This document shows positions 15,801 through 36,160 of a stretch of 39,752 nt of DNA, piece after piece. The position numbers and the translations under genes were made by a program. How positions within the stretch are numbered: the first letter of the stretch is position 1; the number at the start of each line of letters is the position of its first letter. The DNA is from a virus: positions 1-39,752 of IMG/VR virus record IMGVR_UViG_3300020411_002178, one strand, 5' to 3'. Below the pieces are notes generated by a model. That model was not told the origin of the DNA. It made no database searches and worked only from the letters and a program-made list of their open reading frames with translations.

Positions 15801-17877
15801 TTTACGATATGTAAAGACTACTGCTGAAGCATCGCCTCAACAAGACTTTAATTTAGAGAAATTTAAATCCGATTGTCAGTCGAGATTACCCCACATACTT
15901 CAACATCTTTTACCTAATGGTAAAATTAGGGGAGATGAATTTGTGTGTGGGGATTTACATGGTGGCCCCGGAGATTCTTGTTCGTTTAGTTTAAATAAAA
16001 ACACGCCTGGATTAGGCGGAGAGTTTAACGGCGGCAAAATGTTCGGAGACTTCATAGATCTATGGCAATATGTAAAAAATTGTGATTTTCAAGATGCCGT
16101 AAAAGATATTGGAGAATACATAAGTGTACCGACATCGCGTAAGCCGGTGCAAAGCGTGGCGCCAGCCACGCGCGAGGTCGTGAGTTCTAAAAAGCATATA
16201 TATAAAGATGAGAATAATGAGGTCATCTGTTATGTAATGCGAAAAGAATTTAAGGGTGGAGATAAGACATTTTATCCTGTGCTTCCCTCGGGAGAGAAAA
16301 AGTTCCCACAAGTTCGTCCATTATATAATCGCGAGAACATTGCAACATGTTCTAATGAAGATATGATTGTATTAGTGGAGGGAGAAAAGTGTGTGGACGC
16401 TCTTAGGGAAGTTGGTATTACAGCTACTACAGCTATGGCTGGATCGAATGCACCTGTTTCCAAGACCGATTGGTCCCCCTTAGATGGGCGTAATGTTGTT
16501 ATATGGCCAGACAATGATGAGTCTGGTTTGAAATATAGCACTGCCGCAGCATCGCATCTTTTAACTTTGTGTAATACTGTTCGGGTTTTACAACCGGAAC
16601 AAGGAAAGCCAAAAGGATGGGACGCAGCAGACGCTATCGCTGAAGGATTCGATATTGAGTCCTTTCTTTATAAGAAAGATACCGATGTAAAGATTATCAA
16701 TCTTCTCGATGATAGTCTATCTGTTTCTCAATATAAGGAAGGTCAAGCTCCTCAATTTGAATACCTTCTGGATAACACATTACCCCGAGGTGTCGCTGGC
16801 GTCATCGCTGCCGCCGGCGATACCGGTAAAGGTATGTTAACTTTAGATCTAGGGTTAAAACTTGCTTATGGTAAAGTTGGATATGATACAGCTTTCGATG
16901 CAACGCTGAGACAAAATGGATCTGTGGTTATGTTAACGGCTGAGGATGAAGCTGCGGAGATCCATAGAAGAATAGAGGGTGTTGATTTTGACGGCAGACG
17001 ATTTTCTGAAACGGGATATGATTTAAAAATATTACCCTTTCCTAACTATGGTGGAGTAAGACCAATTATTATTCCAACACGAAAAGGATTTGAAGCCACG
17101 GAAGAGTGGGAAGAGATTATAGCACAAATAAAGAAGATTGACGATTTAGTTCTTGTAGTCATAGATCCATTAGCATCATTTGTATATGTCGATATTAATG
17201 CGGATCCAGCAGCCGGGGCATTTGTTACCGGACACTTCGCAAGACTTGCAGCCGAAACGAACGCCACATGGCTCTTGGTGCATCATATGGCAAAAATGGA
17301 TATGAAGAACCCGGTAACAACACCTGAGCATGCACGAAACTTAATTCGTGGTACTTCAGCTATTGTAGATGGTCTTCGATTTGCATTTGCATTATGGACT
17401 CCACCAGAAAGTGAAATGAAACATTTATGTAAAATGCTCCGGATAGATTTTAAAAGAAATAAAATTGTTAATGGTGCTGTTGTGAAGAGTAATGGACCAG
17501 CCGATAGAGAGATCCGAACATTTGTCAGAAACTCGCATAGCGGATTACTTGAAGGGCGTAGTTCAGATCTTCAACTTGCACGTCGTGGTAGAGATTATGA
17601 ATTAGATGAATTAATTCTATGTGTTAAACAAGCTGCATTAGAGGGCAAACCTTTTACACAAACAGGTAAAGCCAATGGCATTGGTCATCATAAAGAAAGA
17701 CTAACACCAGACCTACAAGAGAAAGGTATAAACCATTTAGAAAAAATGGTGCAAACTTTAATTGATCAAGACAAGATTGTAAAAGCATCAGCGCCTGGAA
17801 TGAAACCGCGTGTCTGGTTAGATGTTCCTGACGGACCTTTTGCAACGGGACTTGGAGAATTTGAGCCGGGATCGTAA
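15790..17877 (+). CDS. TOPRIM primase - RecA-fold helicase fusion (695 aa)
   Basis: A GTG start at 15790 is chosen because GGGAG lies seven bases upstream; the next upstream ATG at 15721 would overlap the nuclease gene by 80 bases. Residues 40-110 include several Cys/His (C53, H57, C64). TOPRIM motifs are VEGEKC (E197) and WPDND (D241, D243). The helicase half has Walker A AAGDTGKG (341-348), Walker B VVIDP (D459) and HHMAK (H498), like RepA/AAA_25 helicases. The C-terminal 120 residues look like a winged-helix domain. It should prime and unwind phage DNA while the host supplies the polymerase. A GC-rich hairpin lies at 16154-16171. Confidence 0.85.
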   Translation: MNFDLRYVKTTAEASPQQDFNLEKFKSDCQSRLPHILQHLLPNGKIRGDEFVCGDLHGGPGDSCSFSLNKNTPGLGGEFNGGKMFGDFIDLWQYVKNCDFQDAVKDIGEYISVPTSRKPVQSVAPATREVVSSKKHIYKDENNEVICYVMRKEFKGGDKTFYPVLPSGEKKFPQVRPLYNRENIATCSNEDMIVLVEGEKCVDALREVGITATTAMAGSNAPVSKTDWSPLDGRNVVIWPDNDESGLKYSTAAASHLLTLCNTVRVLQPEQGKPKGWDAADAIAEGFDIESFLYKKDTDVKIINLLDDSLSVSQYKEGQAPQFEYLLDNTLPRGVAGVIAAAGDTGKGMLTLDLGLKLAYGKVGYDTAFDATLRQNGSVVMLTAEDEAAEIHRRIEGVDFDGRRFSETGYDLKILPFPNYGGVRPIIIPTRKGFEATEEWEEIIAQIKKIDDLVLVVIDPLASFVYVDINADPAAGAFVTGHFARLAAETNATWLLVHHMAKMDMKNPVTTPEHARNLIRGTSAIVDGLRFAFALWTPPESEMKHLCKMLRIDFKRNKIVNGAVVKSNGPADREIRTFVRNSHSGLLEGRSSDLQLARRGRDYELDELILCVKQAALEGKPFTQTGKANGIGHHKERLTPDLQEKGINHLEKMVQTLIDQDKIVKASAPGMKPRVWLDVPDGPFATGLGEFEPGS
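16154..16171. repeat. GC-rich hairpin in primase-helicase gene
   Basis: GCGTGGC and GCCACGC form a perfect seven-base-pair stem around a GCCA loop. The stem falls in the linker between the N-terminal and TOPRIM domains, encoding part of SVAPATREVV. Confidence 0.65.
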
Positions 17878-22926: not shown

Positions 22927-23460
22927 ATGAAAGGGAGTAGTAAATCAGATATGAATGCAGTGATCGAGGATCCACAATCTCCTCAGTCACAGTTAACGAT
23001 GCAGCAACAAAAATTTGTGGATCTTTATTGTTCGGCTGAGGATCTGTCGCAGACGGAGGCGGCCCGGAGGGCCGGGTATAAGTATCCGGCACTATCAGGT
23101 CATCAACTACTAAGAAAGCCCCATGTGGTCGCCTGTATTGACGAGAAGAGGAGGGAAATCGGGCATAAGTATCGTATCACTCCTGAAAGAAAAGCTCGGG
23201 ATCTAATTAATATTCAACACAAAGCTCAAGAAGAAGGAAAATACATAGCCGCCTTAAAGGCCATTGAACTACAAGTTAAGCTTGCGGGACTTGATATCAA
23301 AAAATCCATAAACATTACCGGGAAGATAGATATCGACTCCATGACTGAAGAAGATATCAAGAAAGAACTAATGAATTTAGCTAAGGAAGCTGAAAGAAAT
23401 ACAGTAGATCTCCCCCCGGAAAGCTTTGTTGAAGTAATCGAACCTGAAGAATCAGACTAA
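22927..23460 (+). CDS. terS: Terminase small subunit (TerS-like, 177 aa)
   Basis: After AGGAG, the N-terminal region reads LTMQQQKFVDLYCSAEDLSQ and TEAARRAGY, the helix-turn-helix signature of Terminase_2-type small subunits that recognise packaging sites. The C-terminal half is helical and acidic. It lies alone, flanked by leftward genes, about 11 kb from TerL, whereas these genes are usually neighbours. Iterons directly upstream may be its binding site. The GC-rich stem at 23060-23074 is in the conserved motif. Confidence 0.8.
   Translation: MKGSSKSDMNAVIEDPQSPQSQLTMQQQKFVDLYCSAEDLSQTEAARRAGYKYPALSGHQLLRKPHVVACIDEKRREIGHKYRITPERKARDLINIQHKAQEEGKYIAALKAIELQVKLAGLDIKKSINITGKIDIDSMTEEDIKKELMNLAKEAERNTVDLPPESFVEVIEPEESD
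23060..23074. repeat. GC-rich hairpin within TerS
   Basis: CGGCCC and GGGCCG pair around a GGA loop. It encodes the conserved EAARRAGY motif, so this copy is not an insertion but a codon choice or a site shared with the other stems. Confidence 0.55.
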
Positions 23461-23603: not shown

Positions 23604-24794
23604 TTACATTATATTTTCAAAAAAATGTTCAATAACTTTAATTGTAAATCCGTTCCCAATCATTTTATATCTTTGTGTGTTAGATACTCCCTCAGTATAG
23701 TTATCTGGAAGTGTCTGGAGCCGTTCACATTCTAATGGTGTAAGTTTGCGCCATGAAACTTCTTTATCATTAACCCACATATTTCCATTAGAGCTGTTGG
23801 TTCTTAATGTTGTAGATTTATCTCCCGTTATTGTCTTTTTATTATAAGGATCAACAAACTCTGCATCGGGATTAGGAACATATTTTTTTACTGATAATTT
23901 AGAGATTGGTATCTTATTCCCTAAATTAACTGCCACTTTCGGTTCGGTATTACCACCACCATGAGCATTAACTGTCGGTGATTTACCAACTTCTGAATAA
24001 ATTCTTTTTAAAGAATCATGTCCATTTACATCGGCGGCTACAGCTACTTGTTTCGGTGTTTTATATGTTTCTAAATATGGAGCATCAGTCGGTTCTTTGT
24101 GATATCCGGCAATAACTGTTCCTATCTTTTCATCTTTAGCTGTATAAAAACGGCCTTTTCCTCTTTTAGTATTTAATACTCTATCTTTCTTTTGGTCGCT
24201 AATTTCATGTTTAGGATCGGGATGTGTTTCTAATATATCTTTTAAAACAATTCCCAAATCATCGGGCTGTTCTTGTTTTAATGGAATGTTCGTCCAATAT
24301 AATCTTTTTCTGTTTTGTGCTGATACAAGAGATGAATTTATTTCAATCGGTTCAATACCAAATAAACTACCACTAACGCATTCAGGATAAATTTTACCTA
24401 TTGCATTATTAATTACTTCTTGATGCTCCTTTTTCATTTTTACATTTTCTAATAAAAAATATTTAGGTTTTAATTCTTCAAGTAATCTAATAAATTCAAA
24501 AAACAATACGGATCGTTCATCTTCAAATGCTAATCGTTTCCCGGCAAATGAAAAACCTTGGCAAGGACTACCCGCAGTTAATAAATCAATATCATGTATA
24601 AAATCTTCTCCTTTAATTTCCTTAACATCTCCAAGATGAATTGTATTCGGGAAATTCTTTCGGGTTATCTGAATGGCATATTTATCTATCTCACTCGCAT
24701 AATATTTATAAACGGGTATGCCTAAATTTTTTAAAGCAATTTGTGTTCCGCTACATCCATCAAATAAACTGCAAACTACAATGCCTTTTGTCAT
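23604..24794 (-). CDS. dcm-like: C5-cytosine DNA methyltransferase (396 aa)
   Basis: Motif I is LFDGCSGTQ (about residues 10-18), motif IV is GSPCQGFS with catalytic C78, motif VI is ENV (116-118), motif VIII is QNRKRLYW (160-167) and motif X includes GNGF (380-383). Residues about 200-340 form the variable target-recognition region. AdoMet-dependent cytosine methylation is well supported; the target cannot be read from sequence. No restriction gene is next to it, so it likely protects phage DNA. It is the last gene of the leftward cluster from 29282 and overlaps its upstream neighbour by ATGA. Confidence 0.9.
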   Translation of the reverse strand: MTKGIVVCSLFDGCSGTQIALKNLGIPVYKYYASEIDKYAIQITRKNFPNTIHLGDVKEIKGEDFIHDIDLLTAGSPCQGFSFAGKRLAFEDERSVLFFEFIRLLEELKPKYFLLENVKMKKEHQEVINNAIGKIYPECVSGSLFGIEPIEINSSLVSAQNRKRLYWTNIPLKQEQPDDLGIVLKDILETHPDPKHEISDQKKDRVLNTKRGKGRFYTAKDEKIGTVIAGYHKEPTDAPYLETYKTPKQVAVAADVNGHDSLKRIYSEVGKSPTVNAHGGGNTEPKVAVNLGNKIPISKLSVKKYVPNPDAEFVDPYNKKTITGDKSTTLRTNSSNGNMWVNDKEVSWRKLTPLECERLQTLPDNYTEGVSNTQRYKMIGNGFTIKVIEHFFENIM

Positions 24795-28631: not shown

Positions 28632-29282
28632 TTAGTGTAATTTATACGCGATATTTTCAACTGATTTATCCCAGCATTTCCGACATACTCCGCACTTGCC
28701 CGCGTTCTCATATGCTTTGCACGGGTGCGCGTTCTTTGGTAATTCTTGCGCGGTTCCATAAATTGTTGATTTATATAAACCGTTAATTGTTTCCGTTTCT
28801 TGAATGTTGGTTAAATCTAACCCGCCCGTGATGCTATCACTTGAAAACCTAACCACTACATTTTCAAGATCATTCATTTTATCAAGAATAGGTTTAATCT
28901 TTTTCAATTTATAACTGCGCGTTGGTATCCAATGGTTACAATGCGGGGTGTTCTTGCAAATGTTATATATTTTTTCCGCTAATTGTGGGTGATAAATATC
29001 ACCACTATCAAACCACCGAAAAAATCTCTCATTTAAATTTATATAATTTGTCATATCTTCGGTGAACTCTTCGCGTTGCCATGCTTTGAAATTGTCCGCC
29101 CTTGCTTTCTTCACATTTTCAAAATTGTAAGTGTGCTTGTTTGCATAACAACCCGCGCACGCTGTAACCAATTCGCCGTTGGCATTCCTGGCTCCTGGAC
29201 AAGTTTGGATAGCTTGCAAGCTCCATGATCCGCACGGCATTTTGGAAGTTTTACTAATATTTATATAATTTTTTAAAATCAT
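28632..29282 (-). CDS. gp88-family cysteine-rich protein (216 aa)
   Basis: The first gene of the leftward cluster. Cysteines at 17, 28, 42 and 45 (CAGCYA), then 109, 115, 188, 197, 200 and 203, suggest metal or Fe-S binding. The opening region with slTCPGA-like and C-x2-CYA motifs matches my memory of the phage gene product 88 family. The function of that family is not known to me; some radical-SAM-like annotations exist for relatives. The start follows AAGGG. A TATAAT promoter with a TGTAAAC box lies upstream. Confidence 0.65.
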   Translation of the reverse strand: MILKNYINISKTSKMPCGSWSLQAIQTCPGARNANGELVTACAGCYANKHTYNFENVKKARADNFKAWQREEFTEDMTNYINLNERFFRWFDSGDIYHPQLAEKIYNICKNTPHCNHWIPTRSYKLKKIKPILDKMNDLENVVVRFSSDSITGGLDLTNIQETETINGLYKSTIYGTAQELPKNAHPCKAYENAGKCGVCRKCWDKSVENIAYKLH

Positions 29283-29307
29283 TTTTTAACCCTTATATTT
29301 TTTTTCT

Positions 29308-29323
29308 TGTAAACCATATTATA
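29308..29323 (-). promoter_or_regulatory. Leftward promoter of gp88 cluster
   Basis: On the minus strand TATAAT (29318-29323) is followed after three bases by GTTTACA (29308-29314), the same box arrangement as at 12011-12017. The -35 region is only T-rich (a TTGTTT with a 15-base spacer). Confidence 0.45.
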
Positions 29324-29460
29324 GGAATTTGAGAAGAAAAACAAGAAAACAACCAAAAAAACTTATATTATTTGCTTTAACTGAAAAATAAGGTTTTTTT
29401 TAAAATCTCTTATATTATTTTATATAATTAAAACCCGCGTTTTTTTATAAATAAACTAAA

Positions 29461-29476
29461 GGCGGGCAAGCCCGCC
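29461..29476 (-). terminator. GC-rich perfect stem
   Basis: GGCGGGC and GCCCGCC pair around AA, followed on the minus strand by TTTAGTTTATTT. A weak terminator or a structural element at the edge of the repeat island. Confidence 0.4.
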
Positions 29477-29498
29477 CGCCGTCCCCATATAAACGGGG

Positions 29499-29779
29499 TT
29501 CGGGTTCTTCGGTTCATGGTTCGGGTTTAAGTTTGTGAACTAAAACTTTTTAGCGTTAGGGTTCGGGTATTGTCCAGGAGCGCGCGCCCGCGCGCCCGTT
29601 CGGGTTCGGGTTTTGGTTTAAGTTTGAACTTGAACTAAAACTGTTTAGCGTTGGGGTTAGGGTTAGCGATCCACAAGAGAGGCCATAAAAAAGCGGGATC
29701 CGTTCGGGGTTCGGGTTCGGGTTCGGGTTCGGGGCGCCCGCGCCCACCAATATGCAATATGTTAGGGTTAGGGTTAGAG
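29499..29779. repeat. Telomere-like GGGTTC/GGGTTA repeat island
   Basis: A non-coding region with runs of GGGTTC (29706-29734 has five G-runs) and GGGTTA (29653-29666 and 29761-29779), and a direct repeat of about 45 bases (29523-29567 and 29615-29662) around AACTAAAAC..TTTAGCG. GC-rich stems lie at about 29580-29596 and 29731-29744. The island is GC-rich in an AT-rich genome. It has no gene. Confidence 0.8.
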
Positions 29780-29808
29780 TTTATTTTTTTGAATGTTGCA
29801 GCGGACAT

Positions 29809-29837
29809 AAAAAAAGGGGAGCAGATTTCTCCGCCCC
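29809..29837 (-). terminator. Leftward intrinsic terminator
   Basis: On the minus strand a bulged GC-rich stem (GGCGGAG/CTCCCC type) with a seven-base loop is followed by TTTTTTT. It ends the leftward unit from 30998 just before the repeat island. Confidence 0.65.
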
Positions 29838-29869
29838 CCCTAGCTAGAGGAATAAGGAATAACCCCTAA

Positions 29870-31166: not shown

Positions 31167-31253
31167 ATGAGTCCCTATTCGAGCGAGAGGCATGCTCTAT
31201 GCGGAAGCGGCACGGGACGGGGGGGGATTCTACTCAGAAGGCGATGGGGTTAG
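31167..31253 (+). CDS. Candidate 28-residue basic peptide
   Basis: ATG overlaps the TGA of a 13-codon frame (ATGA). The product has EGxG-type turns, GSGTGRGGILLRRRWG. No clear Shine-Dalgarno. It is kept as a candidate because of the coupling and the promoter/terminator frame around it. Confidence 0.25.
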   Translation: MSPYSSERHALCGSGTGRGGILLRRRWG

Positions 31254-31277
31254 TAGTCCTTCTGAGTAGTGTTTTTG
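31230..31277 (+). terminator. Rightward intrinsic terminator
   Basis: CTACTCAGAAGG and CCTTCTGAGTAG form a perfect 12-bp stem with a 16-base loop, followed by TGTTTTT. Confidence 0.7.
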
Positions 31278-34665: not shown

Positions 34666-34672
34666 CGGAGTG

Positions 34673-36160
34673 ATGTCTCAACCAGATTGGGGCAAACTAG
34701 CGGAGGGGCTTTCTGGCGAGGAAGCTCGCCGCGCTCTACAACTTAAAAAGAAACTTACTCAACTAGAGGAAAGAAGACAAAAGCAAGATACTTTTATTCC
34801 TTTTGTTAAACATATGTGGCCTGATTTTATTGAAGGCGAACATCATAAAGTATTTGCTAAACAGTTAGAAAAAGTTTCTCAAGGTAAGTCCAAAAGACTT
34901 ATTGTGAATATGCCACCCCGACACACGAAGTCTGAATTTGCTAGTGTGTTTTTTCCGGCATGGATGATGGGAAGAAATCCTAAATTAAAAATTATTCAAG
35001 CTACACATACAACGGAACTTGCCACAGGCTTTGGTCGTAAATGTAAAGCTCTTGTGCATAGTCCACAATTTCGTGAAGTTTTTCCTGAAGTAAAAATATC
35101 TCCAGAGAGTCAAGCAGCTGGTCGATGGAATACTGTAGACGGCGGAGAGTATTTTGCTGCGGGTGTTGGAGCCGCGATCACGGGACGGGGCGCGGACTTA
35201 CTTGTTATTGATGATCCACATTCTGAGCAAGATGCATTAAGTTCTACTTCGTTTGAAGCATGTTATGAATGGTATACTTCTGGTCCACGACAAAGATTAC
35301 AACCCGGAGGATCTATTGTTATTGTTATGACGCGCTGGTCAACAAAAGATTTGACAGCTGAAGTTTTAAAAATGCAATCACGAAAAGGAGCAGATCAATG
35401 GGAAGTTATAGAGTTCCCGGCTATCTTTGAAGATGATAAAGTGTTGTGGCCTGGATTCTGGACACGCGATGAACTAGAAGGTGTTAAAGCTTCTTTACCA
35501 GTGTCCAAATGGTCAGCACAGTGGTTACAACAACCAACAAGTGAAGAGGCATCTATCTTAAAAAGAGAATGGTGGAAAGTTTGGGAGAGAGAAGATCCTC
35601 CTCATTGTGAATATATTATTCAATCTTATGATACTGCATTTTTAAAATCTGAGCGTGCTGATTACAGTGCAATTACGACATGGGGTGTTTTTTATCCTAC
35701 AGAAGATGATGGTCCTAATATAATATTATTAAACAGTGAGAAAGGACGATGGGAATTTCCTACATTAAAACGCAAAGCGCATGAGCATTATATTGACTAT
35801 GATCCTGATATGGTGTTAATTGAAGCTAAGGCGTCTGGTTTGCCTTTAACACAAGAGCTAAGGAATATGGGAATACCCGTTGTTAACTTTACTCCAGGTG
35901 GTAGAAGATCAGGACAAGACAAAGTTGCAAGGGCTAATGCCTCTGCTCCAATGTTTGAGTCTGGTCTTGTTTGGCATCCAGATACAGACTGGGCTGATGA
36001 ATTAGTCGAGGAATGTGCATCTTTTCCGAATGGTGATCATGATGACTTGGTAGATTCAACAACTCAGGCTATATTACGCTTTAGAGAAGGAGGTTTTATT
36101 CGTTATCCTGAAGATGAAATGGATGAAGAATCACCTCCATCACAACGCATTTATTATTAA
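34673..36160 (+). CDS. terL: Terminase large subunit (495 aa)
   Basis: Walker A-like PPRHTKS (residues 81-87), Walker B LLVIDD (D180, D181), TRWS coupling motif (220-223) and nuclease carboxylates SYDTAF (D320), LIEAKASG (E384) and DHDDLVD (D455, D457/D458) are all present. The order matches the T4/P22-type packaging ATPase-nucleases. A GTG at 34670 is an alternative start, overlapping the CGGAG. It lies between lysis and portal genes. A GC-rich stem is at 34715. Confidence 0.95.
   Translation: MSQPDWGKLAEGLSGEEARRALQLKKKLTQLEERRQKQDTFIPFVKHMWPDFIEGEHHKVFAKQLEKVSQGKSKRLIVNMPPRHTKSEFASVFFPAWMMGRNPKLKIIQATHTTELATGFGRKCKALVHSPQFREVFPEVKISPESQAAGRWNTVDGGEYFAAGVGAAITGRGADLLVIDDPHSEQDALSSTSFEACYEWYTSGPRQRLQPGGSIVIVMTRWSTKDLTAEVLKMQSRKGADQWEVIEFPAIFEDDKVLWPGFWTRDELEGVKASLPVSKWSAQWLQQPTSEEASILKREWWKVWEREDPPHCEYIIQSYDTAFLKSERADYSAITTWGVFYPTEDDGPNIILLNSEKGRWEFPTLKRKAHEHYIDYDPDMVLIEAKASGLPLTQELRNMGIPVVNFTPGGRRSGQDKVARANASAPMFESGLVWHPDTDWADELVEECASFPNGDHDDLVDSTTQAILRFREGGFIRYPEDEMDEESPPSQRIYY
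34715..34730. repeat. GC-rich hairpin near the TerL start
   Basis: GGCGAG and CTCGCC pair around GAAG. It encodes GEEARR. Confidence 0.55.

Follow-up and report, generated by a model that had tools for sequence, protein, structure and literature searches.

A strand-polarised, fast-changing G-tract repeat between the terminase genes of HTVC027P-type marine phages: a possible recombination joint

The cluster of GGGTTA and GGGTTC words described here is one phage's version of a strand-polarised, fast-changing repeat element that belongs to the interval between the small (terS) and large (terL) terminase genes of HTVC027P-type phages. We favour, tentatively and at somewhat less than even confidence, the reading that the repeat arrays are polarised recombination joints that punctuate a region of gene cassettes between the two terminase genes. 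HTVC027P-type phages include phages that infect SAR11, an abundant ocean bacterium. The window, by which we mean the whole stretch of 39,752 nucleotides analysed (IMG/VR record IMGVR_UViG_3300020411_002178, positions 1-39752), comprises about two thirds of the ~59-kb genome of one such phage; its terL has ~62% identity to that of Pelagibacter phage HTVC027P, with 92% of the length covered. About 19.35 kb of the genome is absent from this record and is seen in a relative, G005 (IMGVR_UViG_3300020441_000006); the overlap of the two contigs yields a circular map of ~59 kb, near the sizes of HTVC027P (57.6 kb) and psg01 (59.8 kb).

Over the window as a whole, the two hexamers are unremarkable in number (31, with 26 expected). 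Twelve of the 31 fall at 29496-29776, all on the plus strand, and the densest 300 bp holds 14 GGGTT, against a mean of 2.7 and a maximum of 5 in 200 dinucleotide shuffles; the clustering reported in the initial annotation is thus borne out. So is its G-quadruplex call: when both strands of the window were scanned for the canonical motif, (G3+N1-7)3G3+, the stretch at 29706-29734 was the sole match, and no canonical motif was found in G005, a 55-kb relative that ends within the island. The direct repeat of about 45 bases is real, but its copies are imperfect (a 28-nt family at 79%, spacing 91; a 33-nt family at 91%, spacing 95), and the GC-rich stems number three, not two (29461-29476, 29580-29595 and 29732-29745). 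GC content is 0.54 in the island and 0.36 in the window. The island is non-coding, as had been proposed: it has no conserved reading frame, and relatives differ by non-triplet indels. It lies, again as first described, between leftward genes, with a leftward terminator (29841-29814). To judge by its sequence, the AT-rich leader probably holds the leftward promoter of the GP88 gene, and the extra ~195 bp of G003 and G004 encodes a small rightward ORF (GGAG Shine-Dalgarno, ATG).

Table 1. Features of the repeat island and of the terminase interval in the window
Feature	Position	Strand	Remarks
terS, small terminase	22927..23460	+	PF03592 (Terminase_2); weak PDB match 3zqp
GP88-family gene	28632..29282	-	PF17338; adjoins the island, and arrays in several other lineages
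AT-rich leader	29283..29459	-	94-95% identity to G002-G005; read from sequence
GC stem GGCGGGC-AA-GCCCGCC	29461..29480	-	terminator-like for leftward transcription; invariant in six contigs
G-tract repeat island, GGGTTC/GGGTTA words	29494..29781	+	degenerate hexamer phase; kept in G001-G004
Direct repeat copy A	29508..29568	+	varies among relatives in step with copy B
GC stem GCGCGC-GCCC-GCGCGC	29580..29595	.	G003: loop and flank altered, stem kept
Direct repeat copy B	29599..29663	+	varies among relatives in step with copy A
(GGGTTC)4 array	29706..29734	+	sole canonical G-quadruplex motif in the genome; G003/G004 have 3 units against 4 here
GC stem GGGCG-CCCG-CGCCC	29732..29745	.	GGGCGC-GGG-GCGCCC in G003: loop changed, stem kept
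(TTAGGG)3 cluster	29761..29781	+	
Site of ~195 extra bp in G003/G004	29806..29808	+	insert absent from window genome
Intrinsic terminator of upstream leftward unit	29814..29841	-	
terL, large terminase	34670..36160	+	phrog_38

Two other accounts of the island were rejected. As a structured non-coding RNA it gives no Rfam match at gathering score, and its fold z-scores against shuffled sequence are -0.53 leftward and -1.53 rightward. Coding repeats (EPEPEP or GSGSGS peptides) account for many GC-rich matches elsewhere; the island has no such conserved frame. Outside the island, a 12-bp stem (CTACTCAGAAGG/CCTTCTGAGTAG) stands at 31230-31269, just before the late operon, and is followed by TGTTTTTGTCAAATAAT; its counterpart in contig L123, CTACTAAGCGG/CCGCTTAGTAG with a similar tail, differs by compensatory changes, and the stem is possibly a late leader, pac or origin element. 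Directly before it, at 31219-31226, is a run of eight G with the top G4Hunter score of the window (1.84); L123 has six G at the matching place.

The island recurs in four other IMG/VR contigs (G001-G004) at 89-99% identity, while G005 ends 44 bp into it; an exact search across IMG/VR gave no further members of this close clade. The possibility that related genomes lack the repeats, or that these are an artefact, is thereby answered: the island is confirmed as real, non-random and no product of assembly. With the near-identical G001 excluded, the relatives diverge from the window by 3-10% over the island and by 5-6% over the AT-rich leader, against differences of 12/62 to 17/60 at fourfold sites of the GP88 gene; in terms of identity, 90-97% for the island stands against 72-81% for those sites. 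The spacer is therefore either constrained or recently exchanged. Its history is not uniform: sites in the left part group G002 with G003 and those in the right part group G002 with the window, a four-gamete conflict that indicates recombination inside the island. This conflict, together with an array-joining deletion in a relative (below), gives support from the sequence to one of the roles first suggested, that of recombination hotspot.

The relatives bearing the island or G-arrays, in the close clade and beyond, are metagenomic contigs throughout. With the island as query, BLAST, which masks such low-complexity DNA, gave no nucleotide match in the phage collection, and that collection yielded no cultured phage bearing G-arrays; literature searches turned up no account of an element of this kind in a phage, in keeping with the initial annotation. 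Among the matches listed in a scan for GGGTTM arrays, most of the non-coding arrays in AT-rich contigs came from the window's phage family. A scan of all IMG/VR for (GGGKTTC)3 gave 44 contigs; 29 of these have GC below 0.47, and 28 of the 29, all but L412, belong to the HTVC027P-type family as assigned by tblastn to reference genomes. Of the other contigs most are GC-rich, and many have the motif in a long open frame. Four viral contigs (L412, L111, L003 and L009) carry G-tract arrays outside long ORFs and are unmatched to, or uncompared with, the HTVC027P-type family.

The arrays have a consistent place and a consistent strand. They lie downstream of terS and upstream of terL, and in all 21 contigs that hold terS or terL the G-rich strand coincides with the sense strand of the terminase, though many of these are closely related and so represent one conserved arrangement rather than 21 independent events. 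In the 11 records that bear canonical G-quadruplex motifs, all 17 motifs fall in the terS-terL interval (taken, for records without an identified terS, as reaching ~5.8 kb upstream of terL) and none elsewhere; this region makes up 34% of the non-coding DNA, giving p ~1e-8 on the assumption that the motifs are independent, which they are not. Further contigs in which terL was located place motifs 0.2-6.3 kb upstream of it, the G009 contig being read as circular.

Genes beside the arrays, by contrast with this fixed strand, point leftward to either side of the array, rightward to either side, or away from each other; local transcription, then, does not determine polarity. This bears on the idea of a transcription insulator, in which a G-tract array would stop read-through between adjacent units. 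Arrays do often come directly after an intrinsic terminator (G009 array 2, L129, L415, L418), and the window island sits between units; however, with a G-strand that stays constant whatever the direction of its neighbours, template and non-template positions are mixed. The roadblock role proposed at first is weakened by this, polarity tracking the terminase genes instead, and we allow insulation only a slight chance.

What the arrays do not keep is their word. In a sister group, a GP88-like gene is closely preceded by a G-tract array at each of 13 loci, and the word of the array is GGGTTC, GGGGTTC, GGGTTTC, GGGGTTTC or GGGTC, despite TerL proteins that are 93-100% identical across most of the group; close relatives thus use at least five words. 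Across 60 distinct arrays there are 408 G-tracts and three broken ones (GG), joined by 53 different linkers. The repeat word turns over while the G-tracts persist. Farther afield the word changes altogether. HTVC027P itself has heptamer arrays (TGAAGCT, GCTTGTG, AAGCTTG; word GCTTGNN) on either side of its GP88 gene (L373:16502-17737), with 16 of 17 GCTTGNNGCTTG matches at 16506-17726 on one strand only, flanking that gene, and no canonical G-quadruplex motif. In the psg01 group a dispersed, polarised GGGWGGGTGGGCCC element occupies the interval, as the 28-bp GGGWGGGTGGGCCCGNAGGNCACAAGC in 2-7 copies per contig (L227, L196, L198, L175, L144 and others); where both terminase genes are known all copies are within the interval, all are antisense to terL, and in psg01 a copy is present in intergenic gaps of the interval. 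In a clade of 45% GC (G020-G023), G7-N-G6-N-G6 lies antisense to terL, some 1 kb upstream of that gene, within a conserved GATGG(T/A)ACC..AAAA-G7-N-G5/6-N-G5/6 element (L394-L404). The general feature, given these differing words, is a polarised repeat in the interval. G-tracts are common in these repeats, not universal, and since the HTVC027P word cannot form a G-quadruplex, quadruplex formation cannot be general to the locus; from the sequences we infer a G-quadruplex role for the arrays that do carry G-tracts. In the sister clade L375-L391, CCAGG or CACCAGG words recur beside the arrays. A C5 cytosine methyltransferase gene (23604-24794) is present in the window, and a connection of these words to that enzyme is only a guess.

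Such turnover makes the telomere likeness superficial. GGGTTA words are present, as they are in vertebrate and HHV-6 telomeres, but the phage repeats are internal and unconserved, the word differs between near-identical relatives, and GGGTTA is mixed with GGGTTC, GGGTC, GGGTTTC and GGGGTTC in relatives. We therefore rejected both a telomere repeat, which would call for a uniform conserved word, and the genome-end signal proposed at first, the island being internal in the window genome and in G002, G003 and G004, and the overlapping contigs closing a circle. Contig ends near arrays (G005, L411, L418, L428, L099) were set aside as evidence, as repeats and strain variation break assemblies.

The reading as recombination joints is favoured by the variety of cassettes between arrays and by two losses. 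In the sister group a cassette of differing gene content lies between two arrays spaced by ~0.95 kb: among 13 relatives, with TerL mostly 93-100% identical, the space between arrays holds three different gene sets or none. Cassettes bounded by an array at either end occur in G009, G012, G025, G026, G011, L409, L414 and L442. In L314 the left flank of array 1 is joined to the right flank of array 2 through a hybrid array, without the ~0.93-kb cassette of G009; in L041 the crossover that removed the cassette lies rightward of the arrays. Repeats in the same orientation would permit the loss or gain of a cassette, or its exchange when relatives co-infect, and fixed polarity is what exchange through direct repeats requires; exchange at the arrays would leave neighbouring units unbroken, and nearby predicted terminators and promoters would keep a swapped cassette transcriptionally self-contained. 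(Terminators beside arrays were identified by scan in the window and by visual inspection in relatives; the promoters match a consensus or were read from the sequence.) A G-quadruplex or R-loop on the displaced G-strand may raise local strand exchange and slippage, a suggestion drawn from the retention of G-tracts and from the instability of G-rich repeats in E. coli when transcribed (PMC7023247). Several facts tell against the joints. Recombination is widespread, the genomes being mosaic, and many other breakpoints of the window clade lie away from any array, so that arrays are not needed for exchange; crossover inside arrays is seen in only one deletion; and the window itself shows one island and one small adjacent indel only.

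A second perspective supposes that the arrays are a pac-like packaging-initiation site: the terminase would recognise or cut the polarised repeat, and the G-strand would set the direction of packaging. Nearness to the terminase genes and fixed polarity, which such a site should show, are both found: arrays are always between terS and terL, polarity tracks these genes and not local transcription, and all 17 motifs lie in the interval. TerS is a Terminase_2 protein that weakly matches a small terminase in the PDB, and the contigs overlap into a circle. There is also a parallel among other terminase-driven dsDNA viruses, as herpesvirus Pac1 contains a G-quadruplex-forming sequence (PMC13386867); Pac1, however, is a short site on which genome cleavage depends, whereas the phage arrays are multiple, variable and internal. 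In the psg01 group 3-7 copies are dispersed over up to 5 kb, and other genomes have two or three arrays, unlike one pac site; the word differs between phages whose terS are 89% identical (L321), which misfits recognition of a sequence; and the window island is 6 kb from terS. On balance we think a packaging site unlikely.

The same repeats, with AT-rich DNA and palindromes, could instead be an initiation site for replication, perhaps via an R-loop. AT-rich flanks and palindromes do stand beside arrays in several lineages, and in the window composite and in G009 the arrays lie close to where GC skew turns; but GC skew was discarded as origin evidence, for in HTVC027P and psg01 it tracks gene orientation only. 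Several arrays per genome and a word that turns over, which speaks against an initiator protein reading it, make an origin improbable.

It may also be that the arrays have no selected function and mark a locus-specific slippage or recombination hotspot that makes short GC-rich tandem repeats in non-essential spacers. Copy number and word do turn over fast, HTVC027P and psg01 use different words, and similar heptamer arrays are present in many bacterial genomes, so that an array as such is not phage-specific. Cyanobacterial STRR are intergenic tandem 7-bp G/C-rich repeats scattered over bacterial chromosomes; the phage arrays differ in being restricted to one genome interval with fixed polarity. 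That restriction, when two thirds of the non-coding DNA lies elsewhere, is one difficulty for absence of function; the fixed polarity, G-tracts that are almost never broken, and an island conserved as well as or better than its neighbouring sequence, are others. We hold this account to be distinctly unlikely.

Two known systems come partly close to the arrays. The pilE G-quadruplex of Neisseria gonorrhoeae, a G-tract element of one polarity next to a variable gene, is experimentally proven to promote recombination; it differs in being one fixed sequence at one bacterial gene, where the phage arrays vary in sequence and are candidate elements. The promoter early stem-loops (PeSLs) of T4-type phages are intergenic terminator and promoter punctuation in a plastic gene region, reported, as cited in PMC4503421, to mediate gene shuffling. 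The arrays, too, lie in intergenic gaps of a plastic gene region, and gene shuffling or deletion goes with them in the L314 and L041 losses and in the variable cassettes; they differ in having a polarised repeat whose word changes between close relatives in place of a conserved composite promoter-stem-loop motif.

The interpretation given initially to the island is thus partly supported. A broader proposition is that quadruplex-capable polarised arrays, selected on structure rather than on sequence, are a dedicated DNA-level signal between the terminase genes for genome handling, whether cassette recombination, packaging start or both, in a widespread marine phage family; this is possible, though we consider it doubtful. 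If true, it would stand as an uncommon instance of a DNA-structure property under selection in a phage, and it would provide a handle on the exchange of small genes, or on the start of packaging, in HTVC027P-type phages.
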